Source: Anaerolineaceae bacterium (lineage in GTDB: Bacteria; Chloroflexota; Anaerolineae; Anaerolineales; Anaerolineaceae). From it: a DNA stretch of 61,372 bases. The DNA is taken from positions 1 to 61,372 of the forward strand of contig JAFGXF010000080.1 of assembly GCA_016936755.1 (NCBI GenBank), written 5' to 3'. Shown in pieces: positions 7,064 through 36,596 of this stretch. Numbering within the stretch: the first letter of the stretch is position 1; each line of letters opens with the position of its first letter. The translations under genes and the position numbers were made by a program. The notes beneath the pieces are model-generated. The model was given only the letters and a program-made list of their open reading frames with translations. It did not search any database and was not told where the DNA came from.

Positions 7064-8031
7064 ATCAATTGACACTGTCATACCAGGCTCTTATTCATAA
7101 CGAAATATCTCAGGTTGAGGACTTGATGCGTGCCCAGGCTGACGGCCTGACAGATGACCTCAAGGCTGCCACTCGCATCATGATCGCTGCCGGTGGCAAG
7201 CGGATCCGCCCCGCTCTGGCTTTACTGGTGGGTAAACTCCTGGGTGGTGATATTACCCGGTTGATTACTCTCTCGGCTGCCATCGAACTGCTTCATACCG
7301 CTACTCTGGTTCATGACGATCTGATCGATGGGTCATTGCTACGAAGGGGGGTTCCAACATTGAGTGCCAGATGGTCACCTGGCGCAACGATTCTCACTGG
7401 AGATTTCATGTTTGCACGTGCAGCAAAGTTGGCAGCAGAGACAGGGTCATTGGAAGTCATGAAGGTTTTTGCCCAGACCTTATCCGTTATTGTCAATGGG
7501 GAGATCGAACAGCTTTTTAGCAATCGTTACTCACCTGAGCGATCTGATTATCTTAACCGGATCTATGCCAAAACAGCCTCCTTATTTGAAACAACCGCAC
7601 TTTCAGCCGCAATTATTGGTACTCAAGACACACGCATCCATCAAAGTCTTGCCCAATTTGGATATTCACTTGGCATGGCCTTTCAAATTATCGATGACAT
7701 CATGGATTTCACTGCGGATTCCAACCAATTGGGGAAACCAGTTGGTAATGATCTTCGTCAGGGAATCGTGACCTTGCCTGTACTCATCTATAGGGATTCT
7801 CATTTGGACAATCAGGAATTATCAACACTTTTATCTGGAGAATGCTTTGATGAGGATCTCGTGCAATTGTTAATTGAAAAAGTTCGAAATAGCGATGCAA
7901 TTGATAATACGCGTGCAGTTGCTGAGGAATATATTCATCAAGCCAAAGAGATATTAGGTACACTGGAACCGGGAAAGTACAATTCCGCTCTGTCTGATCT
8001 GGCAGTATATATCACCGGCAGGGTTTCTTAA
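7057..8031 (+). CDS. Polyprenyl diphosphate synthase (trans-isoprenyl transferase)
   Basis: A 324-residue trans-prenyltransferase that condenses isopentenyl diphosphate units into a linear prenyl diphosphate. GGKRIRP is at 46-52, the first aspartate-rich motif DDLID at 87-91 and the second DDIMD at 213-217. Alanine and threonine occupy the positions four and five residues before the first motif. Small residues there leave the pocket open, which fits a long-chain product such as a quinone or carrier-lipid side chain (known for the family; product length here is inferred). The start is GTG at 7057 or 7060, overlapping the end of tatD. It converges with the response-regulator gene, and their stop codons overlap by 4 bases. 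Confidence 0.93.
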   Translation: MVNQLTLSYQALIHNEISQVEDLMRAQADGLTDDLKAATRIMIAAGGKRIRPALALLVGKLLGGDITRLITLSAAIELLHTATLVHDDLIDGSLLRRGVPTLSARWSPGATILTGDFMFARAAKLAAETGSLEVMKVFAQTLSVIVNGEIEQLFSNRYSPERSDYLNRIYAKTASLFETTALSAAIIGTQDTRIHQSLAQFGYSLGMAFQIIDDIMDFTADSNQLGKPVGNDLRQGIVTLPVLIYRDSHLDNQELSTLLSGECFDEDLVQLLIEKVRNSDAIDNTRAVAEEYIHQAKEILGTLEPGKYNSALSDLAVYITGRVS

Positions 8032-8681
8032 ATATACTCCCGTAGGCTGTGTTTGACCGCATAGGCAGCCGCTTCTGCACGATTGCTGACCCCCAATTTG
8101 GCTAAAATACTGCTGACATAATTTCGTACTGTCCCCTCCCCCAGGTAAAGTGATTTTGCAATCTCGCGATTGGTTTTGCCTTCGGAGACTAAAAGTAAAA
8201 CATGCTTTTCTTGTTGGCTTAAATTTGCAAATGCCTGGGCTTCTTCATCTTTGGCTGCCCGTCTGACTTCCTGCAAGATCCTTTGTGTCACCGATGGATC
8301 AAGTGGTACCTTTCCCTGACCTGCAGATTCCAACGCCCTGACGAGATCTTCACTGGCAATTTGCTTGAGTATATAACCCGATGCACCAGCTCGGATGGCA
8401 GAAAATAACATTTCATCTTCCTCGTATGAAGTGATCATTATGACACGAGTATTCTTATAATTCTTTGTTATCTCTTCACAAGCTTCGATACCAGACTTGC
8501 CTGGTAGACGTATATCCATTAATACAACATCTGGTGTGGTGGTGGCAACCAATTCTATCGCTTCCCTGGCCGTGCCGGCTTCACCGACAACTTCAAACTG
8601 AGGATGATGTCCAAGTAATGATTTCAACCCGAGACGAACCACCTCATGATCATCCACCAGAAGTATTCTTTGTCTATTCAT
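8028..8681 (-). CDS. Response regulator, NarL/FixJ type
   Basis: A 217-residue two-component regulator: an N-terminal receiver domain with the acidic pocket D10-D11, phospho-acceptor D56 (VVLMDIRLPG) and the conserved threonine region (VIMITSYEED), then a C-terminal LuxR-type helix-turn-helix (LSQQEKHVLLLVSEGKTN, then NYVSSILAKLGVSNRAE). Phosphorylation is expected to drive dimerisation and DNA binding. I prefer the ATG at 8681 over a TTG at 8693, because the receiver fold starts at RILLVDD. It is the last gene of the signalling operon, 14 bases after the OmpR-type regulator. No histidine kinase gene occurs in the operon or the window. Confidence 0.93.
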   Translation of the reverse strand: MNRQRILLVDDHEVVRLGLKSLLGHHPQFEVVGEAGTAREAIELVATTTPDVVLMDIRLPGKSGIEACEEITKNYKNTRVIMITSYEEDEMLFSAIRAGASGYILKQIASEDLVRALESAGQGKVPLDPSVTQRILQEVRRAAKDEEAQAFANLSQQEKHVLLLVSEGKTNREIAKSLYLGEGTVRNYVSSILAKLGVSNRAEAAAYAVKHSLREYI

Positions 8682-8695
8682 GTTTACTCGCAATC

Positions 8696-9418
8696 TTAAA
8701 TCGATTTTTTCCGATAATCGATAAAACGATATCCAACACCCCGTTCAGTTAATATGTATTTTGGTACAGCGGGATTCTCCTCGAGCTTTTGCCGCAAATA
8801 ATTGATATACAGCCTTACATAGTGAGGCTCGTCCCGATATTCATATCCCCAAACTTTAGACAGGATTTGATCGTGTGTAATGACCCAGCCCGCATTTTGT
8901 ACAAGATGGAATAAAAGCCGATATTCGGTGGGCCGTAATTTTACCAGTTCCCCTGCCACCCAAATTTCACGTCTGTCAAAATCGATCTTTAATCGCTCGT
9001 CCACTTCGATCAATCCATGCATCCCGCCACTCAACGGTTCTGCTCTTCGTAATACGGCCTTTACCCTGCTTGACAACTCACGAGGGCTGAAGGGTTTTGT
9101 AATGTAATCATCAGCGCCCAACTCCAAACCTTTAATACGATCGTCCTCTTCCGCTTTGGCAGTTAACATGATCACGGGTACATTATTTATTTCTCGCAAC
9201 ATCTTTAATACTTCAAATCCATCCAGATCAGGTAACATTACATCCAGCAAAATCAAATCAGGTATGGTATCGCGCACCTTTTGTATCGCCTGTGTCCCCT
9301 TGAATGCTTCTTCAACCAGAAAACCATCGTGTTCCAAATTCAAACGAATAAAACGCACCATGCGTTCTTCGTCATCGACCACAAGTATTTTACGATTTTT
9401 AAACTGGTCTTCTGCCAT
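8696..9418 (-). CDS. Response regulator, OmpR/PhoB type
   Basis: A 240-residue regulator with a receiver domain (acidic pocket D15-D16, phospho-acceptor D59 in LILLDVMLPD, T/K switch residues in VIMLTAK and ITKPFSPREL) and a C-terminal winged helix (LRPTEYRLLFHLVQNAG through VRLYINYLRQKLEENP and ILTERGVGYRF). This is the PhoB/KdpE architecture, a phosphorylation-controlled transcription factor. Its ATG directly follows the stop codon of the 80-residue gene upstream, indicating translational coupling. It is unusual to find two complete response regulators of different output class side by side without a sensor kinase. They may be served by an unlinked kinase or be targets of the operon's Ser/Thr kinase; the latter is inference. 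Confidence 0.93.
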   Translation of the reverse strand: MAEDQFKNRKILVVDDEERMVRFIRLNLEHDGFLVEEAFKGTQAIQKVRDTIPDLILLDVMLPDLDGFEVLKMLREINNVPVIMLTAKAEEDDRIKGLELGADDYITKPFSPRELSSRVKAVLRRAEPLSGGMHGLIEVDERLKIDFDRREIWVAGELVKLRPTEYRLLFHLVQNAGWVITHDQILSKVWGYEYRDEPHYVRLYINYLRQKLEENPAVPKYILTERGVGYRFIDYRKKSI

Positions 9419-9661
9419 TTATTGCTCTCTTACAAATGTGATGATCTTATCCTCTTCGTCTACCCCAACAACCTCGATCAGGTTGATCCGGGTAATTGGC
9501 CACAGAACAACCACGCAATCCACCTCAATATTATCCAGATCCCTTCCATCTTTTCTGCGAGGATGATGAACTGCGATCAGGTTATCACCCGCCGCCGGGA
9601 GTTTTTTGACCTCACCCTGCACCGGTTCTTCTCCGAGTATATGCAATATTACTGTTGGCAT
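9419..9661 (-). CDS. Small beta-rich protein of unknown function in the signalling operon
   Basis: An 80-residue protein I cannot assign. It begins with a hydrophobic strand (PTVILHILG), has a charged centre with HHPRRKDGRD, and continues with alternating hydrophobic strands (VDCVVVLWPITRINLIEVVGVD), which suggests a small beta-barrel. There is no signal peptide, membrane helix or cysteine. It has a good ribosome-binding site (aggaat) and lies 11 bases after the FHA gene and directly against the OmpR-type regulator, so it is a genuine operon member. A role as an adaptor between the FHA protein and the regulators is possible but unsupported. Confidence 0.6.
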   Translation of the reverse strand: MPTVILHILGEEPVQGEVKKLPAAGDNLIAVHHPRRKDGRDLDNIEVDCVVVLWPITRINLIEVVGVDEEDKIITFVREQ

Positions 9662-9672
9662 TTATATTCCTG

Positions 9673-10194
9673 TTAGAGTCTATTAATTGTTTTAATTTCC
9701 ATTGATAAACGTCCGAAACTGATCAGATCTCCCGTCTTAATCGGGTAATCCATATTGGGCGATAGTCGTATTCCGTTGATTTGTGTGCCATTGATTGAAG
9801 TCAGGTCCCTGATAAACATTTCCTTTTCCGTGGTCATGATCAATGCATGAATTCTTGAGACTCCTTTTTCCAATCCATCATAAGGGGTTAAATCGAAATC
9901 TGGTATTACCGCCTGGCCTAAGGCTGCCCTTCCCAGCGTATATTCGTTTTTCTGAATTCGAATAACCACATCTCTGTTATTAATCTTTGCTGCGATTGCC
10001 ACATTGATCTCGCCCTCCATTCTCATGGACTTCGATAGACCCTGGATCACACTACTATCAATAGTATCTATGGATGGCGTTAGATTGGCCTCTTCAACTT
10101 TAGTCTGTTCAGATAAGACCATTGTCTCACCGCATTTGGTACAAAAGAGTGTACCATCTGGTTCTTTATTGGAGCATTTCGTGCATATGGCCAT
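9673..10194 (-). CDS. Zinc-ribbon plus FHA domain protein
   Basis: A 173-residue protein with an N-terminal zinc ribbon (C4-x2-C7 and C18-x2-C21), a linker containing several Ser/Thr residues (LTPSIDTIDSS) and a C-terminal FHA domain. FHA domains bind phosphothreonine peptides. Visible signature elements are GRAALGQ, the SRIHALI segment and the IRDLTSINGTQINGIRL stretch. Threonines in the linker could be substrates of the operon's kinase, as in the GarA/OdhI type of FHA switch (analogy only). The start overlaps the stop of the J/VWA gene by one base, so the two are translated together. It is cytoplasmic, with no membrane segment. Confidence 0.9.
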   Translation of the reverse strand: MAICTKCSNKEPDGTLFCTKCGETMVLSEQTKVEEANLTPSIDTIDSSVIQGLSKSMRMEGEINVAIAAKINNRDVVIRIQKNEYTLGRAALGQAVIPDFDLTPYDGLEKGVSRIHALIMTTEKEMFIRDLTSINGTQINGIRLSPNMDYPIKTGDLISFGRLSMEIKTINRL

Positions 10195-11669
10195 CAGGGT
10201 GTCTCCAGCTTTCCGGGTAATAAGCAGAGCTCCCTGGTTCCATAGCGGATTTTTTTCTCTGCTTCTTCTGTATATTTACCCTTTACTCCCAATTGAAGTG
10301 CTTCAGATTGGATAAACTCTGATAGCTGGCTGACACCCATCTCGCCGATCTTCTTTGCAATGTTTTGCAGGGTTTTCGTACCATTAGCGATGTTACCTTT
10401 TTTAATATCCAGGTTCGCACGCTCTTCCATCCTGAATAAAACAGCTTTTTCAACATACTGGTATACATACCGATTTAATGTGGGCATTGATTTTTCGTCC
10501 ACATTGGGTACTTGTATTTCCTCAACGAAAGATCGGGCTCGAATATCACAGCTGGGAATTTCAGCATTCAGGATTAACGTATCCAATAGTACTGAATCGA
10601 CCGGTTTTTTGATTGGATGCACTTCGTACTCCAACAACACTCTGAGGGTGTCTCCACTACTAAGATGCCCCAGATTATCCATGTTCTTAATATCCAACAT
10701 CTTTACCAAAGGTGAAAGTTGCATCGCAAAAATCAGGTTAGTCGCCTTGCTTCCCAGGTTTTCCAATGTTACATTTTCAACTTCATGATTGGACATTCTT
10801 TTTAGCTTGCTTTCAATGAAAGTGTGAAGCGCTTCTCCATCAGAGATATATTGACTCGTGTCACCACTATAACTGGCAATCTTATCAAGAAAATGCTCAT
10901 CCCATTCAGAACCCATACCCAATGTGGTAATTCCAATATCATTGTTCGCCGCCAAATATGCCAGCTCAATACACTTTTCTTCATCTCCATAAGTATGTCC
11001 ATCTGTTAGAAGGATTACTTGATGAAGATATTCATCCACCTTGTTCTTTAATATTTCATCTATACCAGCAGAGAGTCCTGCGAACATCTCGGTACCGCCA
11101 CCAGCCTCGAGTCCGCTGATGGCAGTTGATATATCACCCACCTCATAGACCCTTTTCGCAGGTATCAGTATTCTCGCCCGATCATTAAAGACGACCAGTG
11201 AGATGACATCATTTTTATCTAATGACTCAAGCAAGCCGCCAAGTATTCTCTTCACTGCATCCAGACGACTTCCTGCCATGGATGTTGATGTGTCCACCAG
11301 TAACGCAAGGTTAAATCTTTTAGTGCTTACTTTACCACTGACCTCACCTGGATCCATTTCAAGAAGTACGTCAATGATCTGAGGATCATTACTCATCTTG
11401 AGAACATTCCAACTGGTATGCTTATTTAGCTTCAATTGAGGATATTCGATCGCATTGACGTTTGATGAGACATCATACATATTACGTTCATTCGAATCTG
11501 ATAAAACCCTATAAGCTTCCTGAACGATAAAGAATTGATCCAACGTTTTAATGAACGGATTGGAGTCAGGATGATACTTCTTTGCCAATCTTTGATAAGA
11601 GCGTTTGATCATATCTTGATTGGCGTCCCGAGGTATGTTCATAACGTTGTAGTGATTCTTTTCATTCAT
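10194..11669 (-). CDS. J-domain and von Willebrand factor A domain fusion protein
   Basis: A 491-residue protein with two recognisable parts. Residues about 5-66 form a DnaJ J-domain with the HPD tripeptide at H33-P34-D35 and the closing helix FFIVQEAYRVLSD, which should stimulate a DnaK-type Hsp70. Residues about 119-290 form a VWA domain with a complete metal-ion-dependent adhesion site: DTSTS (D126, S128, S130), T193 in GGTEMFAG and D223 in LLTDGH. The rest (about 290-491) resembles the beta-sandwich and helical tail that follow VWA domains in other bacterial proteins. There is no signal peptide or membrane helix, so it is cytoplasmic. The gene overlaps the PP2C stop by 4 bases and the FHA start by 1 base. 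The J-VWA combination is unusual; its client is unknown. Confidence 0.9.
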   Translation of the reverse strand: MNEKNHYNVMNIPRDANQDMIKRSYQRLAKKYHPDSNPFIKTLDQFFIVQEAYRVLSDSNERNMYDVSSNVNAIEYPQLKLNKHTSWNVLKMSNDPQIIDVLLEMDPGEVSGKVSTKRFNLALLVDTSTSMAGSRLDAVKRILGGLLESLDKNDVISLVVFNDRARILIPAKRVYEVGDISTAISGLEAGGGTEMFAGLSAGIDEILKNKVDEYLHQVILLTDGHTYGDEEKCIELAYLAANNDIGITTLGMGSEWDEHFLDKIASYSGDTSQYISDGEALHTFIESKLKRMSNHEVENVTLENLGSKATNLIFAMQLSPLVKMLDIKNMDNLGHLSSGDTLRVLLEYEVHPIKKPVDSVLLDTLILNAEIPSCDIRARSFVEEIQVPNVDEKSMPTLNRYVYQYVEKAVLFRMEERANLDIKKGNIANGTKTLQNIAKKIGEMGVSQLSEFIQSEALQLGVKGKYTEEAEKKIRYGTRELCLLPGKLETP

Positions 11670-12556: not shown

Positions 12557-14446
12557 TTACACTTTGATTGCATACAGCCTGTGATCCATTGAACCAATAT
12601 ATAACATATGACTAAAAAGAACAGGTGATCCAGTGATTGGTCCTTCTGTTTTATATTTCCAGACCATTCGCCCATTGGTGGCATCCAGACAATACAGATA
12701 TCCATCTGTAGAACCACAATATATGTTTTCTTCATAAACAGCTGGTGAGCCTGCTATTTGACCACCTGTCTTGAATTTCCACTTTTCCACAGGTCGAAAA
12801 ACATCTACACAATATAAGTAGCCATCCGCAGAGCCCACATAAACATAATCCTTGAATACCAGCGGAGAGGATATCGATCCCTTCTGCATGCGGTATCTCC
12901 AGATGATCCAGCCTGAGTTTTTGTCCAAAGCAAACAGATGTCCTTCCAATGAAGCAAATATCACTTCTTCCTGGTATACTGCCGGGGAAGAAGTTACAGC
13001 TCGTTTGGTTTTATTCCGCCATTTAATCTCGCCAGATAAAGATGCGCAATAAAAGTCCCCTTCTTCACAGCCAAAATAGAGAAGATCGTCATCCACCAAA
13101 ACTGAAGAACGAACTGGTCCAGCGGCTTCTATTTTCCACAAGGCATGACCGGATTCGGCGCTAACGGCATGAAGGCGTCCATCATCTGATCCAATATAAA
13201 TGACTTTATTGTATATTCTTGGTGAAGACCGAATTGCATCATCTGTGCTATAAGCCCATTTCAGCGACCCATCTTTCAAATACAAAGAGTATAGTTTCTT
13301 ATCTTCAGAACCGAAATAAATAGCGTTTTCCAGAACTGCCGGCTTAGATGCAATTCCCCCCTCAGTCGGCGCCTTCCATTCCATTTTTCCAGTATTTGCA
13401 TTGATTGCATACAGGTTCCGATCATATGCACCTACATAAACCATATCATTATAATAATACGGTGCCTGTCTGATTTCATCTTCACATTCAAAAATCCAAA
13501 CAGGTCTTACAGAGAAAACATCATTTGAAGAAGCGGTTTCATCCAGGCTTTTTTCTGCTCGATGAGCAGGCCGGCTGCCATGTAAACATCGATCCAATGC
13601 CGTTTTCATTTCCAAAATATTCGAATATCGTTCTTCCGGCTTATATCTGACCGCTCGATTGATAATATTCTCGAATTCCTCAGAAATATCCTGATTAACC
13701 GACCTGACCTTTCGTTCATGGAAAGTAAAAGGCGGTTCTTCGCGAGGATCCACTTTTGTGAGCAGGTAGTGTAAAGTAGCACCGAGTGAATAGATGTCAG
13801 CCTGGGGAGTTGCTTCTCCACGATATTGCTCCGGAGGAGAAAATCCTTCTGTACCGATCATTGTTCCTTTAACGCCCGTTTCAAATACTTTCGCAATACC
13901 AAAATCGATTAGAAATACATGGCTGTTGTTATCGATCATGACATTGGATGGTTTCATGTCACGAAAAACAATCGGTTTCGGATGGTAGTTGTGAAGATAA
14001 TACAGTACATCACATATTTCCAAAGCCCACTTTATTACTTGATCCTCGGGGATAAACCCTGGTGTATCGTTGATGATCTTTTCGAGATCCTTTCCTTGTA
14101 TGAATTCCAGGATAAGGTAAGAACGGTCACCTCGTGTGAAGTAATCTGCGATATGCGGAATGGCTGGATGACTCAAGCTTGCCAATATATTGGCTTCTCG
14201 CTCGAAGTTTTGTATAATGGAATCACGCAGCAAGCTGTCATCAGTATGCATCATCATCTCTTTAATGGCAACAAGCTTGACGGTGTTGGGGAAATGCAAA
14301 TCCCTGGCACAGTAGACTCCGGCCATGCCACCTCGTCCAACCATGGATTGTATTAAATATCGTCCATCAAGCTTTGTTCCAGGATGGAGGCGAGATGGAT
14401 TTGCACCCTGGTTATTATTTCCGTCGTCGATGATCCTGGTTTCCGT
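12557..14446 (-). CDS. Soluble Ser/Thr protein kinase with C-terminal PQQ-type beta-propeller
   Basis: A Hanks-type kinase followed directly by a beta-propeller of PQQ-like repeats. Counting from the proposed start, the ATP lysine is K62 (LVAIKE), the catalytic loop is FRDMKPSN with D163 (Phe replaces the usual His) and the metal aspartate is D181 in IDFGIAK. From about residue 315 there are roughly seven repeats of the type YVGAYDRNLYAINANTGK. No membrane helix separates the halves, unlike membrane kinases such as mycobacterial PknD, so the propeller should be cytoplasmic. The first ATG (14344) would cut through the first strand of the glycine-rich loop. The open frame continues upstream with a normal kinase N-terminus (TKLDGRYLIQS) but contains no ATG, GTG, TTG or CTG. 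ACG at 14446 lies 9 nt after a strong AGGAG. Confidence 0.88.
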   Translation of the reverse strand, partial: TETRIIDDGNNNQGANPSRLHPGTKLDGRYLIQSMVGRGGMAGVYCARDLHFPNTVKLVAIKEMMMHTDDSLLRDSIIQNFEREANILASLSHPAIPHIADYFTRGDRSYLILEFIQGKDLEKIINDTPGFIPEDQVIKWALEICDVLYYLHNYHPKPIVFRDMKPSNVMIDNNSHVFLIDFGIAKVFETGVKGTMIGTEGFSPPEQYRGEATPQADIYSLGATLHYLLTKVDPREEPPFTFHERKVRSVNQDISEEFENIINRAVRYKPEERYSNILEMKTALDRCLHGSRPAHRAEKSLDETASSNDVFSVRPVWIFECEDEIRQAPYYYNDMVYVGAYDRNLYAINANTGKMEWKAPTEGGIASKPAVLENAIYFGSEDKKLYSLYLKDGSLKWAYSTDDAIRSSPRIYNKVIYIGSDDGRLHAVSAESGHALWKIEAAGPVRSSVLVDDDLLYFGCEEGDFYCASLSGEIKWRNKTKRAVTSSPAVYQEEVIFASLEGHLFALDKNSGWIIWRYRMQKGSISSPLVFKDYVYVGSADGYLYCVDVFRPVEKWKFKTGGQIAGSPAVYEENIYCGSTDGYLYCLDATNGRMVWKYKTEGPITGSPVLFSHMLYIGSMDHRLYAIKV

Positions 14447-16011: not shown

Positions 16012-16479
16012 TTACGGTGATTGTATTATCTGAAGATATTGACCGGCAGCCCATCCCTGCCGGTTTTCATCATACGATGAAACCACCTTCCACCAGAAAA
16101 AACCATCTTTTAATTCAGGGCCATCCATGATGGTAAAAACCTCATTCTCCATCGCCACAAATCTTGCCTGATTATCGATTCCAGGTGCAGCGCGTATGGA
16201 TAAACCGATACCGCCCGTACCATAGATTTGTACATAAGCTCCGCTTGAAAAATACTCATCCGGGGTTTGTACTGGTGTTATTTCATCTAAGTAAGTCAGA
16301 GTAGCAGTAATGGTTGCTGTTGATACGGCAATTTTCGTAATCACTGCTGTATTGTAAAATGATCCCTGCGTTAATCTGTTGCGAAACATAATGCTGGTTC
16401 CAATCAACATGCAAACGCAGATGATTGCCAATCCTGCTCCGGCAAATATGTATTTGTAAGTATCCTGTTTTCTTATCAT
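16012..16479 (-). CDS. Membrane-anchored protein with a bacterial SH3-type domain
   Basis: A 155-residue protein with one N-terminal membrane helix (about residues 9-30, IFAGAGLAIICVCMLIG) after a short basic start, a Thr-rich linker, and an extracytoplasmic domain resembling bacterial SH3 folds (LSIRAAPGIDNQARFVAMEN, GPELKDGFFWWKVVS and RQGWAAGQYLQII). SH3b domains commonly bind peptidoglycan or peptides, but no enzymatic domain is attached here. I prefer the ATG at 16479 over 16506 because it places the basic residues directly before the helix. A TATAAT box lies 10 nt upstream of it. It converges with glnA and diverges from the kinase gene at 16562. Confidence 0.75.
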   Translation of the reverse strand: MIRKQDTYKYIFAGAGLAIICVCMLIGTSIMFRNRLTQGSFYNTAVITKIAVSTATITATLTYLDEITPVQTPDEYFSSGAYVQIYGTGGIGLSIRAAPGIDNQARFVAMENEVFTIMDGPELKDGFFWWKVVSSYDENRQGWAAGQYLQIIQSP

Positions 16480-16489
16480 GGACAAACCC

Positions 16490-16553
16490 ATTATACCTGA
16501 TGACATTGCTAATATCTATGCGCATGTTGTCGTTTCTGCCGCTATGTTATAAT
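16490..16553. promoter_or_regulatory. Divergent near-leaderless promoters
   Basis: TATAAT read leftward (plus positions 16490-16495) lies 10 nt from the SH3-protein ATG. TGTTATAAT read rightward (-10 hexamer 16548-16553) lies 8 nt from the kinase ATG. Normal initiation about 7 nt after each box would leave little or no 5' leader. Confidence 0.55.
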
Positions 16554-16561
16554 TTTCTGGC

Positions 16562-17599
16562 ATGCCTATCGAAAACACGCCCAATCTCATACTCGGTAAT
16601 CGCTATCGCGTCATAAAGAAGATCGCAACCGGCGGGATGGCTTATGTTTATCTCGGGCATGATACCACCCTGGATCGATCGGTTGCGATTAAGATCTTAA
16701 AACAAAGTCTCTCTCGTGATAAAGCGTTTGCCGATCAGTTCCATCATGAAGCAAAAGCAGCAGCAAACCTGACTCACCCCAATATCGTGACTGTTCATGA
16801 TTTCGGTTTTGACAATACCAAGTTATTTATTATTATGGAATTTGTTGCCGGTTATGATTTACAGACCACTCTTATTCGTCAGCCATCGATCACATTATAT
16901 GAAATCCTGCAGCTGTTGATTCAGGCCTGCGATGGTATCGGTTTTGCACATAAAGCCGGAATTATTCATTGTGATCTAAAACCTCAGAATCTTCTGGTAA
17001 CTCACGATCATAAATTAAAAGTTACTGATTTTGGTATTGCGCGTGCAGTATCCGCGGCGACTTCAGATAGTATACAGAATCTCGTTTGGGGCTCACCACA
17101 TTATTTTTCACCCGAACAATCAGCTGGCTATCCACCCACCCCTGCATCCGATGTCTACTCATTAGGAGTTGTTTTATTTGAAGCACTAACCGGGATTCTG
17201 CCCTTTGAATCAGTTGACAATACTGAACTGGCTCGCATGCACCAGGAGGTCCTCCCACCCCGACCACGATCCATCAACCCCATGATACCGGCCATGCTTG
17301 AACAGGTCATGATAAAACTGCTTTCAAAGGATCCATCGACACGATACAGGACTGCAGATCAACTGGCAATTATCCTTCGCAATATCGCTCGTGAGAATCC
17401 ACAGCTTGCGAAAAGTATCCGAACAGTCCCTGCTTCAACAATTCCTGGAGATTTGGATAAGGGTTTATATCATCGATTCATGTCATCCGTAAAAGATCTG
17501 GATTGGGGCACGATCGCCCTGGCTATCCTTTCAACCTTGGCGGTGGGTGGGTTAATTCCTTTTTGGTTTTATGTATGGTTATCAATGAACGGCTATTAG
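16562..17599 (+). CDS. Tail-anchored Ser/Thr protein kinase
   Basis: A 345-residue Hanks-type kinase. The glycine-rich loop is IATGGMAYVYLG (21-32), the ATP lysine is K44 in VAIKIL, the catalytic loop is HCDLKPQN with D138, and the metal-binding DFG aspartate is D156. Cys replaces the usual Arg of HRD, so activation-loop control may differ from RD kinases. One hydrophobic helix lies near the C-terminus (about 318-342) with only a few residues beyond it, so the kinase is held on the inner face of the membrane without an external sensor, unlike PrkC/PknB with PASTA repeats. It precedes rpe by 7 bases, as prkC precedes rsgA-rpe in Bacillus subtilis. The -10 box 8 nt upstream suggests a leaderless mRNA. 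Confidence 0.94.
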   Translation: MPIENTPNLILGNRYRVIKKIATGGMAYVYLGHDTTLDRSVAIKILKQSLSRDKAFADQFHHEAKAAANLTHPNIVTVHDFGFDNTKLFIIMEFVAGYDLQTTLIRQPSITLYEILQLLIQACDGIGFAHKAGIIHCDLKPQNLLVTHDHKLKVTDFGIARAVSAATSDSIQNLVWGSPHYFSPEQSAGYPPTPASDVYSLGVVLFEALTGILPFESVDNTELARMHQEVLPPRPRSINPMIPAMLEQVMIKLLSKDPSTRYRTADQLAIILRNIARENPQLAKSIRTVPASTIPGDLDKGLYHRFMSSVKDLDWGTIALAILSTLAVGGLIPFWFYVWLSMNGY

Positions 17600-24311: not shown

Positions 24312-26807
24312 TTATTGATGATCAAGAGGCACAGATGCATGTGCCTCTTTTTTATTCCTTTTTTCAGGTTTAATCGCTCCTGAAACCGGATGAAGTGCGT
24401 TTTTTATGATTTGATCCATATGGACTACTGGAATGACTTTCAGGTCCATTCTTACTTTTTTGGGAACGTCAACCAAGTCTTTTACATTCCGCTCTGGCAG
24501 ATACAATCTTTTCAACCCGGACCGGTGAGCAGCCAGGACCTTCTCCCTGACCCCCCCCACGGGCAGGATCTTCCCACGCAAAGTGATCTCACCTGTCATC
24601 CCAATATCCTTATACACCTTGCGGCCAGTCAATGCTGATGCCAAAGCCGTGGCCATGGTAATCCCTGCACTTGGACCATCCTTTGGAATAGCTCCTTCTG
24701 GTATGTGTATATGGATATCGGCTTTTTCAAATATATCCACAGGAATTCCCAGTTCTTTTTGTCTTGATTTGATATAGGAGAGTGCAGCCTGCGCCGATTC
24801 CTGCATGATCTCGCCAATCTGACCGGTGATCTGCAAATTTCCCTTGCCTTCCACGATGAGTACCTCAACTGGCATTATCTCACCGCCATTTTCTGTCCAC
24901 GCAACTGCTGTTGCAACACCAGATTCATCTTCGCGCTCAGCTATTGATAAGTAGTATTGGGGCGCTCCCAGGTGTTTCTCCAGAAGTTCCGGGGTAATGC
25001 TGCTTATATAGGTCTTTTTTTCGGACTTCTTCCGGGCGATCTTCCTGCAAACCCTGCCAATTTCCCGTTCAAGATTTCGCACACCCGCTTCATAAGTGTA
25101 TTCTTCAATGATTTTTCGTATTGCTTTTTCACCCAATAACATATCCTGGTCTGCCAGGCCACTCTCCTCCATTTGTCTTGGGATGAGGAACCTTCTGGCG
25201 ATTTCAATCTTCTCTTCTTCAATATAACCCGGAAAATCAATGACTTCCATTCGATCAATCAATGCTGCAGGTATCGAGTTCAATGAGTTCGCTGTAGTGA
25301 TAAAGAGCGCCTGCGAAAGATTATAGGGTAATTCAAGATAGTGGTCAGAAAATGCATGGTTTTGCTCAGGATCAAGCACTTCAAGCAATGCAGCAGACGG
25401 ATCTCCCCTGAAGTCGGCACCAAGCTTATCGATTTCATCCAGCATGAAAAGTGGATTAATGGTACCGGCCCTCTTCATCGTCTGTATCACACGACCAGGC
25501 AATGCGCCAATATATGTCCGACGATGTCCCCTTATCTCTGCTTCATCGCGTACACCGCCAAGAGACACTCTGACGAATTTCCTGCCCAAAGCCTGGGCGA
25601 TTGATTTCCCGAGTGAAGTTTTGCCCGTTCCCGGCGGTCCGACAAAACATAGTATGGGTTGCTTGTGTTTTTTGGGGTGCAGACTCAGAACAGCAATGTA
25701 CTCAAGTATTCGCTCCTTGGCTCGTTTCAACCCGTAATGATGTTTTTCCAGAATCCGTTGGGCATGTCTGACATCCAGATTATCCTCTGTACTCTCGACC
25801 CAGGGAAGTTCCAGTATCCAATCCATGTATGTGCGGATAATTCCCACTTCTGGTGCGAGCGATTGCATTTGGCTAAGCCGTTCGATTTCCTTTAGCGCCT
25901 GTTTGTTGACTTCTTCCGGCAGCTCTTTTCTTTCAATTTTCAATCGTAATTCAGCCATTTCGCGAGACCAAATGTCGCCTTCGCCCAATTCATTTTGAAT
26001 GGCTTTCATTTGTTCACGCAAATAAAATTCTCTCTGTGAACGGTCTACTTCAGTCTGAACCCTTTCCTGGATCTCATCCTCCAATCGCAGCACATCCAAC
26101 TCCTGAGCCAGCAGTGTATTTACTTTTCTCAGTCGCTCAATCGGATCCCGTAATATGAGTAACGCCTGTCGCTGCTTGATTGGGAATGACACTGCGGTTG
26201 CCACCATATCCGCCAGCCATCCTGGCTCGGTGATATTCATTGAAAATAGCTGGGCTTCCTCTGGGAGGCTGCGATCCAGCTGAACACACTTTTCAAACAG
26301 GTTCCTGGTAGCCCTCATAAGAGCTTCAATCCTTGAATTGATTGCCGACGCTTCGATTATCGGTTTCGCCCGAACCACGATAAATGGCTCCCGTTGTATC
26401 ACCTCAATGACTTCCACCCGCCGTCGTCCCTGTACCAATGCCGAATTGTTACCATCCGGCATGTTCAATAACCTGCCGACAGCAATTTCAACACCTATGG
26501 GTAACAGGTCTTCCGGATCCGGGACCTCAATTTCGGCATTTTTTTGTGGCAGACCAATTACGGTCATATCATTGAATTGCGCTTCCTGGATTGCCAACAA
26601 ACTTGGTCCCGGCTGTATGAAAATGGGAGAGATCATCCGTGGAAATACCACCAGATCCCTTAATGCCAATACCGGGCATTCTATTAATCCAGTATCATCC
26701 GGTTGTGAATTGGGTATCCGATATAATTCGTCAGTTCTTTGATGAAGTGACGATGCATAATCCTCGTCGTCATCTCTCGCCATCCACTCATTATTTTTCA
26801 TGTTCAT
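24312..26807 (-). CDS. lon: ATP-dependent Lon protease (second copy)
   Basis: An 831-residue LonA, clearly paralogous to but diverged from the copy at 487-2991. The N-terminal domain begins near [15 protein letters not shown]; the linker has [17 protein letters not shown]; Walker A is GPPGTGKTS with K396; the catalytic dyad is S713 (KDGPSAG) and K756 (in [13 protein letters not shown]). Compared with the first copy it has a shorter linker before Walker A and a longer acidic N-terminus (ARDDDEDY). The ATG at 26807 is preferred; the frame runs to 26864 but would overlap folC. It lies 13 bases after folC on the same strand. Its last codons double as a terminator for the convergent coaD transcript. 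Confidence 0.96.
24324..24353 (+). terminator. Rho-independent terminator of the coaD transcript, inside the lon 3' end
   Basis: AAGAGGCAC (24324-24332) pairs perfectly with GTGCCTCTT (24341-24349) over an 8-nt loop and is followed by T residues on the plus strand. It lies within the last codons of the leftward lon gene. Confidence 0.85.
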
Positions 26808-26820
26808 CCATCTCTCTTTT

Positions 26821-28194
26821 TCATCCAACGATACTTCCACGTACTGCAGCTGCAATAAAAACACTCCCAGCAGCCAATATCACATTTGAAGGTTCGGATG
26901 TTCCCAATACTTCTTTCAAGGTTTCTTCAACGCTATTAAATGCTACTGCGTGCCTGCCCATCTTATTGACGAATTCCACAATGACTTCCGGATCCAGCGC
27001 CCGCGGGTGCTCTGATTTAGTAGCGTAGATGCGATGAATTCTGGGTAATAGTTCCTTTAAGATATTGATAACATCCTTATCTTCTGAGGCCCCAAATATC
27101 AAATCTATTGTCTGGTCGGGTAAATAATCATCCAATGTTTGGCGTAAACGCCTGGCAGAATCCTGGTTATGCGCAGAATCCAAGATCACCAGGGGTTTTT
27201 CCTTGATAATTTCAAAACGTCCGGGCCATTTTGTTGATTTGAATCCCTGCATCACGGCTTCACGTGGGATATTAAACCCGGCTTTTTGGCATACATCTAA
27301 AACAGCATACGCTGTCGCTGCATTCTCCATCTGATGCGATCCGAGCATTCCAATCTCCAAAATAACCGGCTTCCAATCAACGTTCTTCGATCGACCCTTG
27401 AGATAATTATCCATCCCCTTTTGTTCATCTAGATACCATATATAAGCGGATTGCCCTTCCAATGAATGCTCGATTGGCTTCCATAACAGATCCCTGCCAA
27501 CCAGGGTTAATTCTGATCCGCGAGTTTCAGCGATATCCAGGATTGTGTGTAATGCTTCCGCTGGCTGAGGTGCACTGACGACCGGGATACCCGGTTTTAT
27601 GATGCCGCTTTTTTCCCTGGCAATATCTGATAATGTATTGCCCAATATACTGGTGTGATCAAGTGATATCGATGTGATGGCTGACACAACCGGGTTAACC
27701 ACATTGGTGGCATCCAGTCTTCCCCCCAAGCCAACTTCTGCCACAACGATATCCGTGTCCTGTTGGGAGAAATATTTGAATGCAATTGCCGTGGTAATCT
27801 CAAACGTGGATAATTTCGGTATCTTTGAAACAGCGTCTTTCACTGAATTTACCAGTTCGATCAATTGCTGATGAGTGATGGGTGTCCGATTAACCTGAAT
27901 ACGTTCGCAATAATCTTCCATATGGGGCGATGTATATAATCCAGCCTTATACCCTGCCTGCTGCAGAGCCTGCGCACAAAATACCGCGGTTGATCCTTTT
28001 CCTTTCGTTCCGGCGATGTGAATGACTGGATAATCATGATGCGGATTTCCAATCAAATCCAGAAATCGCACCATTCTTCCCAAATTGAATTTGTCAGCTG
28101 AATAGCGAAAAGCTCTGGTTAGACTGTAATCCACGAATGAATACAGGTAATCCAATGTGTCCTGGTACGCTTTATCGTTCTGATTGAAATCCAT
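26821..28194 (-). CDS. folC: Folylpolyglutamate synthase / dihydrofolate synthase
   Basis: A 457-residue Mur-ligase-family enzyme that adds glutamate to dihydropteroate and/or to folates, using ATP, in the cytoplasm. The ATP-binding loop GTKGKGSTA spans residues 62-70. Other typical segments are LYTSPHMEDYCERIQVN, the EVGLGGRLDATNVV signature, SLDHTSILGNTLSDIAREKSGI and the C-terminal SAHNQDSARRL. Its own promoter (TTGCAG, 17 nt, TACAAT) lies just upstream, and the second lon follows by 13 bases. Whether it is bifunctional cannot be told from the motifs. Confidence 0.95.
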   Translation of the reverse strand: MDFNQNDKAYQDTLDYLYSFVDYSLTRAFRYSADKFNLGRMVRFLDLIGNPHHDYPVIHIAGTKGKGSTAVFCAQALQQAGYKAGLYTSPHMEDYCERIQVNRTPITHQQLIELVNSVKDAVSKIPKLSTFEITTAIAFKYFSQQDTDIVVAEVGLGGRLDATNVVNPVVSAITSISLDHTSILGNTLSDIAREKSGIIKPGIPVVSAPQPAEALHTILDIAETRGSELTLVGRDLLWKPIEHSLEGQSAYIWYLDEQKGMDNYLKGRSKNVDWKPVILEIGMLGSHQMENAATAYAVLDVCQKAGFNIPREAVMQGFKSTKWPGRFEIIKEKPLVILDSAHNQDSARRLRQTLDDYLPDQTIDLIFGASEDKDVINILKELLPRIHRIYATKSEHPRALDPEVIVEFVNKMGRHAVAFNSVEETLKEVLGTSEPSNVILAAGSVFIAAAVRGSIVG

Positions 28195-30657: not shown

Positions 30658-32825
30658 TCAAGGTATTCCCCATAAACGGATGGTGCCGTCGTAAGAAGTG
30701 GAAGCTAACAAGCTTCCGTCAGGAGAAAATTCCAGATCGGTAATCTTGTCTGTATGCCCATTCAATGAATGCAATAAGCTTCCACGATCAACATCGATAA
30801 GGAGAATGTCGTTTCTCGCGGTGGTGATTGCGAGAAGTTCGCTATTATGCGACCATGTAAAGACAATCTCTGAGTAAAACTCCCGCGCACGGTAGGTTAT
30901 CTCCCTGGCTGAACTTGACCAGCCATCCGGAATGATCGTAGGAGATCGGTCGGGGTGATAGAGATGGATGCTCCCGTTAGTATCAATAATTACCGATGAC
31001 TTGCCATCCAGGGAACAATGAATGATTTTATTGCAATCTGATGGACCAGACGGAATTAACTCCATATTTTCTGTCGCCCCCGTGGACAGATCCATCCGAA
31101 ATAGCTTCTTATAATCATCATTATCATCATATGCGTCCCAAATATCTACCAATAACTCTTTAGTACCTGGTGTGAATGCCATTGAATTGATGTATTGATC
31201 CTCATCAAGATCCCAGGATCGGATGATATCTAAATCGTCGGTATTCCTAATGTTGATCACTTGATGAGTATAGCCATCGAGATATCCACCCATGGCAAAC
31301 AAAGTGCCATCATCTGAAAACACAAATGCTCCCGCAGCCTCTCCGATCACCCAACTATCATTCCCCATGGAGCTTTCGGATATATTATATATTTTCAATT
31401 GATCAAATATCACATCTCCAAGAACGATCTTATTTTCCGGGTACGTCGGGATGAGTTCAGTGGAACCCCAATCATTATCACTTGGATAGTAATAGTGATT
31501 CTCAATGATCTCACCATCCTGAGATGAAAGGAGTTGTAAGGACCAGTAGCTAATATATCCGTTCTTTAACGCCAGGACGCTTCCATCTGATGACCAGTTT
31601 ATGGACCTGTGTTCTGCCATAAACCCCTCCAAACTCCTGGTCACAGTACCATTTGTGGCATCCCATATGATTGCGCTCTGTGCGTTAACAAGTACGCTAA
31701 GGTTGGCAGTCGTTGTGATTGATTTCCCATCCTTTGACCATGCCAGGTCAGTAAAGCCAAATACATATTGCGGAGGTTCATAACCGAAATAATGGTCGAG
31801 CTGGCCATCACTGATTTGCCAGGTGATAATATAATCGGACCCAGCTGCCAAATACCTGCCATCCGGCGAGAATGCGACGCTCTCCAAAGGCCCTCTGGTT
31901 GATCCTTCAATCCCTATATTTTTAAGCGTATTTATTAACGACCACCCCTCCATACTGTAAAGCAATACTTCATCATAAGTGGCTAAGGCGAAATACTTCC
32001 CATCAGGCGAAAAGATGATATCCTGAAAAGAGAAATAACCAGTTGAATATCGATCCCGAAAGAAGACTTCAGAGCTTTCTCCCAAATTCCAAACAATTGC
32101 CTGGTTCTTTGTCAGGAATGCCAACAACGATCCATCCGGAGAGAATTCAATCTCGTTGTTGATAGCATTGCTGTCAAACTTGTAATCATTCTCATACTTA
32201 TGAATAAAGAATGTTTGCAATAATGTCAAGTCATTTACTAAGTAGATTTGTACTTGATCCCCATAGTATCTATCCATCGTATAAGCTGAGACAGCGATCA
32301 GCTTTCCATCGGGAGAAATCGCAATTTGCCTGGCTTTCCAATCGATTTCTGCTTGAGATCCAATTCTGGAATCAGTAGTACATCGACGCTCTCTTCTGTT
32401 GTTACCATCAACGACCTGCCATCCGGAAAGAATGCAATATCAGCTGAACCCATGCGACCGGGCTCATAAGAGGAGATCAATTCATAGGATCCAGCGTCAA
32501 ACAAATACACACCGATCCTGCTTGAAATTGCCAGGTACCTGCCATCCGGTGAGTATTTTGTCCAGATAGCCACGCCTTTACCCCATTTTGCCAGCTGAAC
32601 GATCTGGTCGGCATTGGCAGCCGAAAGCTCCTCTCGGGCTGGATAGACTGGGGTACCCTGTAAAGCCGGGATATAAGCTGTGGGCGTGCGCATTGCGGTT
32701 GGATTTAATGATGGAGCCTGAGTCGATGTTGAAGGTGGACTTCCGGAACAAGAGGTCAGGATAATGATCATGATCATTGAAACGAACACGATATGCTTAT
32801 ACATTTGATGGTTTGTTATTTTCAT
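30658..32825 (-). pseudogene. WD40-repeat lipoprotein interrupted by a one-base frameshift
   Basis: Two adjacent frames together make one protein of about 722 residues, paralogous to the next gene. The upstream frame (32825 to 32298) starts MKITNHQMYKH, has a lipoprotein signal ending LTSCSG and a Thr/Pro linker, then WD40-type repeats. It goes out of frame at an AAA run (plus strand TTT, 32346-32348), where the paralog reads RRIDERADVIAISPDG. One extra A there would restore QKIDWKARQIAISPDG and continue into the second frame, which runs to 30658 and ends in an SPDGSLLAST-type repeat and RLWGIP. Without that base translation stops at 32298. It may be a true pseudogene, a phase-variable gene or a sequencing error. 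A strong ribosome-binding site (ggatggag) precedes the ATG. Confidence 0.8.
32581..32688 (-). repeat. 108-bp near-identical block shared by two WD40 lipoprotein genes (copy A)
   Basis: This block matches 34841-34948 with only 3 mismatches and no gaps. It encodes the region just after the lipoprotein linker (PTAYIPALQGTPVYP onward). The rest of the two genes is far more diverged. Confidence 0.9.
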
Positions 32826-32970
32826 AGTTACTCCATCCTCGCAACCAGGAGATTCCGGAAGTTTCCAACCCACAGATATGCTTCAATAATTCAGTATATT
32901 GTCACTTTCAAAGTAAAGCAGCGAGCGAGATACATTCATAATGGCAAGACCTCTCATCGTTTGATAAGGA

Positions 32971-35085
32971 TCAGGGAATACCCCACAAACGGACGGTGCC
33001 GTCATATGGGGTTGAGGCTAATAGGCTACCGTCAGGAGAGAATTGGAGATCAGTAATCTCAAAGCCAGAACCAGGTAATGAAGACAGTAATTGCCAATTC
33101 TCTGTGTCGATAAGAACGATTGATCCACCAAATGCTGAAACTGCAAGCAATTCACCATTCGGAGACCAGGTAATTACAGGATTAACACCAGCCTGATAGA
33201 CAATATTCCTGGCAGTATTTGCCAATCCCTCCACTATTACAACGGGCGTTTTATCTGGATAATAGATATTAATCGTTCCATCCATTGTGGAAACCGCAAA
33301 TGACTTTTGATCACAGGATACTGCAAATCTACTTACTCTACTCTCGTGTGTTAGTGGGTAATTATCTATGGTTTTTAAAGACCCATCCCTTATATCAAGT
33401 TTGATTATTCCATTATCCATTAATAAGATAAGTGATTCCTGATCATTTGGATCGAAAAAGAATTCCCAAAGATCCTGATACTGGTCCTTCGGAATATCGA
33501 CAGACAGTAGGATACTTAAATCATCTGTCTTTCTGATCTCCACAGTGAATTCTGTATAAATAGAGTCTTCTGAATAATTAATCATCGCCAGTAAAGTTCC
33601 ATCATCATTAAAGGTAAAAGGACTCATGCTTTTCCCTAACAACCAGTAGTCATTCCCGATAGAGTTCTCAGAGATTTGTCGGATTTCCAGCAAACCGGAT
33701 TGATTGATTCTCTCGACAATTGCATTCTCCGGAAATACTGGTAATAATTTTACTGTTGCCGGTTCAGAGCGAAGATCCCAGTAGTGATTCTCAACGATTT
33801 GGCCGTTGATCGCTGATAGTACCTGCATCGCATAAGAAAAATCGGCACCGCTGCTCAACATGATAAACTGACCGGAAGGGAACCAATCGATTGAAAAAAG
33901 CTCACTCGTAAAACCATCGAGTGAAATCTGCGGCTCGCCTTCTTCGACGTTCCAGACGGTTGCGCTATGATGATTTATATCGTAGTAACTGAATGGGGAT
34001 GTGATGGGTGCGGATGCGGTGGCTATGGATTTGCCATCCTGTGACCACGACAGATCAGTATAGAAATCTGGATACTCCAATGAATCCGCCCGAAAAGTAT
34101 GCATCAACTTGCCATCGCTGACCTGCCATACGTTGATATTATAGGATATGGCAGCAATTAAGCTTCCATCCGGTGAAAATTCGACACAAAATTTGCCATA
34201 ATAATTTGGCTGGATAGTTATTTGATTGATCAAATATCTGCTTTGCAACCCATACAACAATACTCCCGAGTTGGTGCTGATAGCAAAATAAAGCCCATCC
34301 GGTGAAAAGTCCAAGTCATAGGCCGTACTCATCATTTTCGTCGGACCGTAATGGAAGTATTCCGTTCGATCTGTCAAATTCCAGATCATTGCTTCAGACA
34401 CTCCAACACAACCCAATAACTGACCGTCAGCGGAGAATTCTAATTCGCGGACCCATGTATCTGTATCGAATGTATGAAGCAGTATCAGGTTCTCCGATAG
34501 GAATATCTTTACTTGTGGCTCTCCACTTTTATCGTTAAAACCTTCAGCGATGGCGATCATCTTTCCATCTGGTGAAATCGCGATCACGTCTGCCCGCTCG
34601 TCTATTCGCCGCAGCAAAGAAGCATCAGGAATTGAGAGAATTTCGGTACTCTCATCTGCAGCAACAACCAATGATTTGCCATCCGGGAAGAAAGCAATGT
34701 CCCCTGTTCCTCCCTTCAGGGGCTCGTATGATGCCAATAATGAATAGGTGTCGCCAGTATAGATATAAGTGCCCACCGTGCTGGAAACAGCCAGATAGCT
34801 GCCATCCGGTGAATACTTGACGTGTTTCGCCACCCCTTTTCCCCATTTTGCCAGTTGAACGATCTGGTCGGCATTGGCAGCCGAAAGCTCCTCGCGGGCT
34901 GGATAGACTGGGGTACCCTGTAAAGCAGGGATATAAGCTGTGGGCGTGAGCCTTGCGGTTGGGGTTGATGATGGTGCCTGGGTCGGTGTTGAAGGTGACT
35001 TCCCGGAACATGACGCCAGAATGATGGTCATGATAAGGGCAAATAATGTTGCTTGCCTGTACAGTATATGGCTTGTCTTTTTCAA
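32971..35085 (-). CDS. WD40-repeat lipoprotein
   Basis: A 704-residue secreted lipoprotein. After a basic start the signal sequence LFALIMTIILASC places the lipobox cysteine near residue 23, followed by a Thr/Pro/Ser-rich tether and a series of WD40-like repeats of the form xxFSPDGxxLAxxSxxGxIxxW, enough for one or two beta-propellers outside the membrane. The start is taken as TTG at 35085 (reading MKKTSHILYRQ), 6 nt after a strong GAGGAG. This aligns with the ATG of the paralog at 32825 (MKITNHQMYKH). An upstream ATG at 35226 would add a charged stretch that blocks signal-peptide function. The 236 bases upstream hold no gene I can support. The partner is unknown; propellers of this type usually bind proteins. 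Confidence 0.85.
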   Translation of the reverse strand: MKKTSHILYRQATLFALIMTIILASCSGKSPSTPTQAPSSTPTARLTPTAYIPALQGTPVYPAREELSAANADQIVQLAKWGKGVAKHVKYSPDGSYLAVSSTVGTYIYTGDTYSLLASYEPLKGGTGDIAFFPDGKSLVVAADESTEILSIPDASLLRRIDERADVIAISPDGKMIAIAEGFNDKSGEPQVKIFLSENLILLHTFDTDTWVRELEFSADGQLLGCVGVSEAMIWNLTDRTEYFHYGPTKMMSTAYDLDFSPDGLYFAISTNSGVLLYGLQSRYLINQITIQPNYYGKFCVEFSPDGSLIAAISYNINVWQVSDGKLMHTFRADSLEYPDFYTDLSWSQDGKSIATASAPITSPFSYYDINHHSATVWNVEEGEPQISLDGFTSELFSIDWFPSGQFIMLSSGADFSYAMQVLSAINGQIVENHYWDLRSEPATVKLLPVFPENAIVERINQSGLLEIRQISENSIGNDYWLLGKSMSPFTFNDDGTLLAMINYSEDSIYTEFTVEIRKTDDLSILLSVDIPKDQYQDLWEFFFDPNDQESLILLMDNGIIKLDIRDGSLKTIDNYPLTHESRVSRFAVSCDQKSFAVSTMDGTINIYYPDKTPVVIVEGLANTARNIVYQAGVNPVITWSPNGELLAVSAFGGSIVLIDTENWQLLSSLPGSGFEITDLQFSPDGSLLASTPYDGTVRLWGIP
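34841..34948 (-). repeat. 108-bp near-identical block shared by two WD40 lipoprotein genes (copy B)
   Basis: Second copy of the block at 32581-32688 (3 mismatches), in the same position relative to its gene. Confidence 0.9.
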
Positions 35086-35321
35086 ATTCAGCTCCTCGCA
35101 TTCAAGGGAGTGAAAAGCATCCCAAGAAAACCTTGAATCATCGTGAGGTTCGATCTTTTGGCTGGACGAATCAATGCATGGCCCTGGATGAGCAGGTGAA
35201 CAAAATCCATCCTGTGACGATGACATTTATCAAACGATTCACATCGAGAGGTTGTTTAGATTGAAGAACTCACAATCATCATCTCAGTTTATATCCTCAA
35301 TCGGCATCTGCCTTCGTCGGC

Positions 35322-36596
35322 CTAAGGGGCCAGTTTGCTCTCAATATTCCATAAGGAGATCACTCCATCGGACTTTATCGCCAACAAGTGATCATCCGGG
35401 CTGAAGGCCACATCATCAACAGAATAGCGATCGTCAATGAATTCCGGTTTGAATTCGAAAGGTGCCCGGAAGGTAGCGGTGTTCCAAATCTCAAATCTGT
35501 CCTCTGAATAGGTGACTGAATCATGAATGCAGAACATCAAGCTGGCATCCGTATTAAAGTATTTCTCACCCAATCGATAGGGTAACTTCTGAATCTGATC
35601 ATCAAACAAGTCGGTTGCCGTAAATGTCCCCGCGATATTATCCTGGTCCAACAACCTTGTCCCAACCAGGTACATTTCCCGATCGAATGGACGAACTTCT
35701 TCGAACCTGAGATCCCGCCAGAACGACTCCGTGTTGATGTGCCAGATCTGCACCCGGTATTTCCATTTATAATTACAACAAAAATCCATGTATTTATACC
35801 ATTCCATAAAGACATAGATAAATTCACCATCCTCCCGGATCGAAATATCTGTAGCATACATTTCCTTCCCCAAATCGATTGACGAGTGCAGGGTGTTCGT
35901 TAATGCATCCCGGATCTCGATCGTATTCCTGTTGGCGTATGCCAATTTGGTTGAATCGGGCAAAAACGCAAACGCATTGACCCTCCTATGGTATTCCCCC
36001 TGTCTCGGATCCACCATGATCGCATAATCCTGAAGCCAGTCCTGTAATAATTCTCCAGACTGGGTATCCCAGATCAGGATGTGATTCATATCTCTGCCAT
36101 CTACCCGGTACCTCATACTCACACTCAGAAGACCACCGTCGGAACTATAGGCCACCCCCGTCATGTTTAACCCTTCGGTATAAAGGGGTGGGATTGTCAT
36201 TTCGATAGACAGTTTTTGGGTTTCGACATCCCAAATCTTGATACTTGTCCCTGCATCAGCCAGATACTTTCCATCCGGACTGAAAGTGATGCTGGAATTA
36301 TTCGTATTTAAATAATCACCAAGTAGTCCCAGTAATTCAGGATCGCCCCCCTCGATATCACCTGATTTTGACGATATCTGTGGCAGGCTGGCTGCATTGG
36401 GCGTGGCAGTTGGTGTTTTCGTCGGTTGAGGTTTGCAAACGCGGGTCGGAACCGAGGAAGGAGCCAGATTGGGCAGGATGATAACATCCTGTGTTGTTGG
36501 GCGTACCTGGCTTGGAAAAGCCTGACAGGCGATAGACATGAATATTAATATCAGCGCCAACATGATAATGCGACCGAGAACACTATTTGACATCAT
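35322..36596 (-). CDS. WD40-like lipoprotein, third member of the cluster
   Basis: A 424-residue lipoprotein with signal peptide LALILIFMSIACQ (lipobox cysteine about residue 24), a Pro/Thr-rich linker (KPQPTKTPTATP) and WD40-like repeats (ITFSPDGKYLADAG, VAYSSDGGLLSVS, VAFSPDDHLLAIKSDG). It is shorter than and clearly different from its two neighbours, sharing architecture rather than close sequence. The ATG at 36596 has a ribosome-binding site (aaagggg). Several aromatic and cysteine residues (FCCNYKW) cluster in one repeat. It is probably anchored on the cell surface; the ligand is unknown. Confidence 0.85.
   Translation of the reverse strand: MMSNSVLGRIIMLALILIFMSIACQAFPSQVRPTTQDVIILPNLAPSSVPTRVCKPQPTKTPTATPNAASLPQISSKSGDIEGGDPELLGLLGDYLNTNNSSITFSPDGKYLADAGTSIKIWDVETQKLSIEMTIPPLYTEGLNMTGVAYSSDGGLLSVSMRYRVDGRDMNHILIWDTQSGELLQDWLQDYAIMVDPRQGEYHRRVNAFAFLPDSTKLAYANRNTIEIRDALTNTLHSSIDLGKEMYATDISIREDGEFIYVFMEWYKYMDFCCNYKWKYRVQIWHINTESFWRDLRFEEVRPFDREMYLVGTRLLDQDNIAGTFTATDLFDDQIQKLPYRLGEKYFNTDASLMFCIHDSVTYSEDRFEIWNTATFRAPFEFKPEFIDDRYSVDDVAFSPDDHLLAIKSDGVISLWNIESKLAP

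Follow-up and report, generated by a model that had tools for sequence, protein, structure and literature searches.

We found that a 491-aa protein of an Anaerolineaceae bacterium joins a J-domain to a von Willebrand factor A (VWA) domain carrying an intact metal site (MIDAS), and that it is encoded in a gene order nearly invariant across Anaerolineae: kinase, PP2C phosphatase, this protein (J-VWA), a zinc ribbon-FHA protein (ZnR-FHA), an 80-aa protein (SM80) and usually an OmpR-type regulator. Behind the J-domain, J-VWA is modelled with the three-domain fold of archaeal ArnB. By analogy with the ArnA-ArnB system of Sulfolobus, we think it somewhat probable that J-VWA serves as scaffold in a bacterial phosphoswitch in which the kinase and PP2C set FHA docking on a helix bundle and the J-domain brings in DnaK. 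The features discussed below lie in the window, the whole 61,372-nt stretch of DNA that we analyzed.

Features of the J-VWA operon in the window, with locus counts taken, among 80 loci, from those with sufficient flank
Feature	Position	Strand	Evidence	Conservation
J-VWA protein, 491 aa: J-domain (residues 5-68), split beta-sandwich with inserted VWA (80-390), C-terminal four-helix bundle (400-480)	10194..11669	-	Pfam DnaJ and VWA; AlphaFold2; PDB folds	
J-domain, residues 5-68, HPD at 33-35	11466..11657	-	Pfam DnaJ	HPD in 110/115 J-carrying homologues
VWA domain, residues 118-293, MIDAS D126-x-S128-x-S130, T193, D223	10791..11318	-	Pfam VWA	MIDAS conserved
C-terminal helix bundle, residues 400-480, ArnB RHB-like (predicted), T478-x-x-L481 at end	10230..10472	-	AlphaFold2 model; homologue alignment	T478-x-x-L481 near-invariant
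ZnR-FHA protein, 173 aa, zinc ribbon C4, C7, C18, C21	9673..10194	-	Pfam FHA; family profile best PDB matches ArnA 5a8i, 8s05_C	adjacent in 75/75 loci
PP2C-type Ser/Thr phosphatase, 265 aa	11666..12463	-	Pfam PP2C; NCBIfam Stp1-like	76/76 loci
Ser/Thr protein kinase, 595 aa counted from its first ATG, C-terminal PQQ/BamB-type beta-propeller	12557..14344	-	Pfam Pkinase, PQQ_2	74/74 loci
SM80, conserved protein of 80 aa, predicted to form a small Sm/LSm-like beta-barrel of five strands	9419..9661	-	AlphaFold2 pLDDT 87; Foldseek	72/72 loci
OmpR/PhoB-type response regulator	8696..9418	-	Pfam Response_reg and Trans_reg_C	68/69 loci
LuxR/NarL-type response regulator, less constant neighbour	8028..8693	-		29/63 loci

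A J-domain ahead of an ArnB-like core

An earlier note, made from the letters of the sequence, had read a J-domain with HPD and a complete VWA metal site in this ATG-initiated frame, and had proposed a domain-profile search and a structure prediction as checks. Both readings hold. Residues 5-66 score 69.1 bits against Pfam DnaJ (E 3e-19, with a cut-off of 27.8 bits), and residues 120-284 score 73.6 bits against Pfam VWA (E 3e-20, cut-off 23.8), so far above the cut-offs that chance can be dismissed; the DnaJ score and the conservation of the motif likewise rule out a fortuitous HPD. The five MIDAS residues are invariant across 151 homologues, save one gapped row. Helix II of the J-domain, IKRSYQRLAKKYHPD, is basic, as is typical of J-domains that bind DnaK. 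The DnaJ zinc finger and DnaJ C-terminal domain are absent from J-VWA (Pfam scan at E<=1), which, given its HPD J-domain, makes it by definition a class C J protein. Mean pairwise identity among homologues is 0.51 for the J-domain, 0.46 for the VWA and 0.27 for the sandwich, indicating conservation of the J-domain on a par with the VWA and above the sandwich.

The AlphaFold2 model (pLDDT 84.5), built from 20 window and locus sequences, runs from the J-domain through a linker to two strands, the VWA, six strands and four helices, with strands 80-106 and 295-390 flanking the VWA and the helices spanning 400-480. ArnB and its paralogue vWA2 have the same plan, in which a VWA interrupts an eight-stranded sandwich and a helix bundle comes after them (PMC6509490, PMC12852372). 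Foldseek ranked 4fx5 first for the model, with the two chains of the ArnAB complex 8s05 next and 5a8j behind them, and VIA-align gave Z 34.1 over 395 residues for 4fx5, 31.1 over 372 for 8s05 and 25.7 over 352 for 5a8j; the ArnB superposition (8s05_A, Z 31, 372 residues) covers core residues 77-485. On this model J-VWA is the ArnB fold with a J-domain in front. Two points count against carrying the likeness over to function: 4fx5 fits better than ArnB does, and the ArnB-type architecture is widespread, mostly outside phosphoswitches (PMC12852372).

The fold also bears on a more generic role, raised by the earlier note, as an assembly factor working with an AAA+ ATPase. If J-VWA were a VWA adaptor for a MoxR-type ATPase, with the J-domain adding Hsp70 to the assembly step, the intact MIDAS would be accounted for, and the genome does hold one clear MoxR gene. 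That gene, however, lies on contig C106 and the window on C16, AAA+ proteins are absent among the operon genes, and the VWA sits in an ArnB-type fold rather than that of a CoxE/BatA-type MoxR partner, the CoxE Pfam model reaching only 14 bits. We regard this explanation as very improbable and have dropped the generic role.

An operon conserved across Anaerolineae

Of 201 genomes from the same order, 149 have a J-VWA homologue, usually a single copy, and since most of these matches are full-length (at about 25-35% identity), the fusion is evidently real and no assembly artefact. The nearest relatives on the tree are from Anaerolinea and Leptolinea, with a top identity of 34%. A phylum-wide profile search returned full-length J-bearing relatives from further families of the class (f17, f20, f22, f23 and f24) and from f35 outside it. 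It also picked up relatives that lack the J-domain, about 420 aa long and often present three to a genome, in other families of the phylum (f36, f46, f72 and others). Two further J-bearing relatives outside the class belong to f48 and f57.

The best 80 loci were all from Chloroflexota, and where flank sufficed, each had the propeller kinase, PP2C, an adjacent FHA gene and the 80-aa gene (table). In the window, the PP2C stop overlaps the J-VWA start (ATGA), the J-VWA stop overlaps the ZnR-FHA start (TGATG), and the SM80 and response regulator genes abut, which suggests coupled translation. Promoter and terminator scans gave no greater signal than in shuffled sequences. In one assembly (G169; loci L074 and L118), J-VWA and FHA form a single 666-aa frame, which is weak evidence. 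An apparent FHA-SM80 fusion at L058 was an artefact of ORF picking, as L078 on the same contig shows a separate FHA ORF.

The four cysteines and the FHA residues are invariant in the ZnR-FHA family alignment (A3), and the best PDB sequence matches of the family profile, the two ArnA chains, span both zinc ribbon and FHA domain. Against the ArnAB reading, ArnA tops this list only through summed ribbon and FHA scores, and other FHA domains outscore it on FHA alone. The phosphatase, too, is of the PP2C family and not PP2A-type. SM80 matched no Pfam family, and nearly all the Foldseek matches listed for it were Sm/LSm folds, at weak E values (0.02 or worse); no Hfq was found in the assembly, which is 87% complete. 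The first ATG of the kinase sits just before the glycine loop, placing the true start upstream, where the frame is open to 14470 with no ATG, GTG or TTG; the true start is therefore non-canonical, or the assembly is in error.

Several other genes of the window were recorded. In many Anaerolineae, as here, the surroundings of the operon also include a second PknB-like kinase (16562-17599, +) and a small SH3_3-like protein (16012-16506, -). Two Lon protease genes lie within 27 kb of each other (487-2991, +, and 24312-26864, -), and at 30658-36596 (-) WD40 beta-propeller proteins of 539, 751 and 424 aa follow one another. We also considered a defence system and rejected it: J-VWA, FHA and SM80 had no PADLOC match, and those of the kinase were generic.

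A candidate phosphoswitch and the place of Hsp70 in it

In Sulfolobus, the ArnA zinc finger loosely holds ArnB; once ArnC has phosphorylated threonines in the helix bundle of ArnB, binding by the FHA domain is tight (PMC12852372; see also PMC6509490). PP2A dissociates the complex (PMC7472852). Transferred to the operon, this scheme would have the propeller kinase phosphorylate threonines of the J-VWA helix bundle; the ZnR-FHA protein, loosely held through its zinc ribbon, would dock its FHA domain on the phosphorylated bundle, and PP2C would undo the phosphorylation. The J-domain would recruit DnaK, whose ATP hydrolysis could load, open, remodel or reset the complex. The late phosphosites of ArnB are buried and need a conformational change, which would make the bundle a natural DnaK client. 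The co-encoded OmpR-type regulator may relay the output. What the analysis establishes is the domains, the fold, the motifs and the conserved gene order; phosphorylation, docking, the DnaK step and the output are inferred by analogy. Two full-length DnaK copies are present in the genome, the second (G000:C82:31060-32838) located away from the dnaK-dnaJ pair on contig C79.

Our leading candidate for the phosphothreonine on which the FHA domain would dock is T478, with L481 at +3. It sits where the last helix ends, within the motif K-x-I-K-Y-G-T-R-x-L, and is present in 148 of 151 homologues (L481 in 145), J-bearing and J-less alike. The sequence alignment of J-VWA to the ArnB PDB entry stops short of this residue, and the ends of the structural alignment suggest that it may fall near ArnB T371/T375. 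T478 may instead be structural.

How far Hsp70 matters can be judged from the versions of the module that do without it. Five of the J-carrying homologues, in three families, keep the J-fold with HPD replaced: QPN in f24, GSS and AAG in f20, and SRS and SRL in f11 (loci L178, L183, L184, L065 and L204). The J-domain is absent altogether from f2 and from G199, a genome of the window's own family, and because both nest among J-bearing relatives on a quick tree, it was most likely lost there. Among the loci scored for the J-domain, L205 is truncated at a contig end. J-less loci of other classes and of f2 have the identical core gene order, f2 retaining the operon down to the response regulator, and J-less paralogues in f14 stand among FHA, PP2C and kinase genes. 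At L199, L200, L202, L203 and L215, J-less ArnB-type VWA paralogues occur beside genes for FHA, PP2C and kinase proteins, and some of these clusters contain two or three VWA genes. A J-domain tree (64 columns, mostly unresolved) sets the J-domains of J-VWA apart from DnaJ and CbpA (95 SH-aLRT), except for that of G276, making a second J fusion possible.

As the core occurs without J in other Chloroflexota lineages, the J-domain is an add-on to an ArnA-ArnB-like core, and a cluster that exists J-less or with an HPD-less J-domain cannot have Hsp70 at the core of its mechanism. The earlier note had proposed an Hsp70-driven step controlled by the neighbouring kinase and phosphatase. Such a step is plausible given the HPD J-domain, the intact metal site and the conserved kinase/PP2C/FHA operon, but it would be an accessory one.

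The same losses raise the question of whether Hsp70 stimulation was selected at all. The J-domain might serve mainly as a contact fold within the complex, which would fit both the families that keep the fold without HPD and the retention of the operon where the domain is gone. HPD is nonetheless intact in 110 of the 115 J-carrying homologues, and helix II stays basic, as expected for DnaK binding, so we rate this explanation as distinctly unlikely. We give a little more credence, though still not much, to the J-domain as a sensor of chaperone availability. DnaK on the J-domain would hold one state, and unfolded protein drawing DnaK off would flip the switch, so that the operon would report proteotoxic stress to the response regulator; control of sigma-32 by DnaK/DnaJ offers an analogy. 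An HPD J-domain fused to the scaffold, a response regulator at nearly every locus and DnaK in the genome are all in keeping with sensing. The J-less f2 version nevertheless has the same operon, regulator included, and no sequence evidence splits sensing from remodelling.

Returning to the phosphoswitch with DnaK as a remodelling factor, we put forward only tentatively its widest form, in which DnaK is an ATP-driven step of Ser/Thr phosphosignalling in an ArnA-ArnB-type switch that is conserved in Chloroflexota, feeds a response regulator and works with a small Sm-like protein.

Comparison with known systems

We found no description of a bacterial ArnA-ArnB-like operon, or of a J-domain on one, in the openly readable literature. 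The closest structure over the whole VWA/sandwich/helix-bundle core is 4fx5, a VWA protein of Catenulispora acidiphila, for which, unlike J-VWA, no J-domain is indicated. Like other class C J-domain proteins, J-VWA pairs an HPD J-domain with a partner domain of the kind thought to define the client, although here the partner would be the ArnB-type scaffold of a phosphorylation module. The threonine phosphorylation pathway of type VI secretion (PpkA/PppA/Fha1) also brings together a kinase, a PP2C, an FHA protein and a VWA domain, with the VWA fused to the kinase and without a J-domain; no T6SS gene was found among the Pfam-scanned proteins, which cover part of the window. MoxR-VWA ternary systems (VMAP and others; PMC7159879) share a VWA scaffold, occur in Chloroflexota and in some cases have FHA or kinase domains, but they need an adjacent MoxR AAA+, and the Pfam-scanned operon genes include none.

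If the proposed mechanism is right, the ArnA-ArnB kind of FHA/VWA phosphoswitch, known from work on Sulfolobus, is present in a bacterial phylum, complete in one operon, and Ser/Thr phosphosignalling is directly linked to Hsp70; with natural J-less and HPD-less operons to compare, what the chaperone contributes can be tested. With ArnA-ArnB of the archaellum regulatory network, the operon shares a VWA with intact MIDAS in a split beta-sandwich followed by a helix bundle (as modelled here), a partner with an N-terminal four-cysteine zinc domain and a C-terminal FHA domain, and a dedicated Ser/Thr kinase and phosphatase. It differs in that a J-domain precedes the VWA core, a single operon encodes every part, the phosphatase is PP2C where Sulfolobus has PP2A, the kinase is of the beta-propeller type where ArnC is OB/TPR, an Sm-like protein and a response regulator are added, and the host is a bacterium, with no known link to motility.
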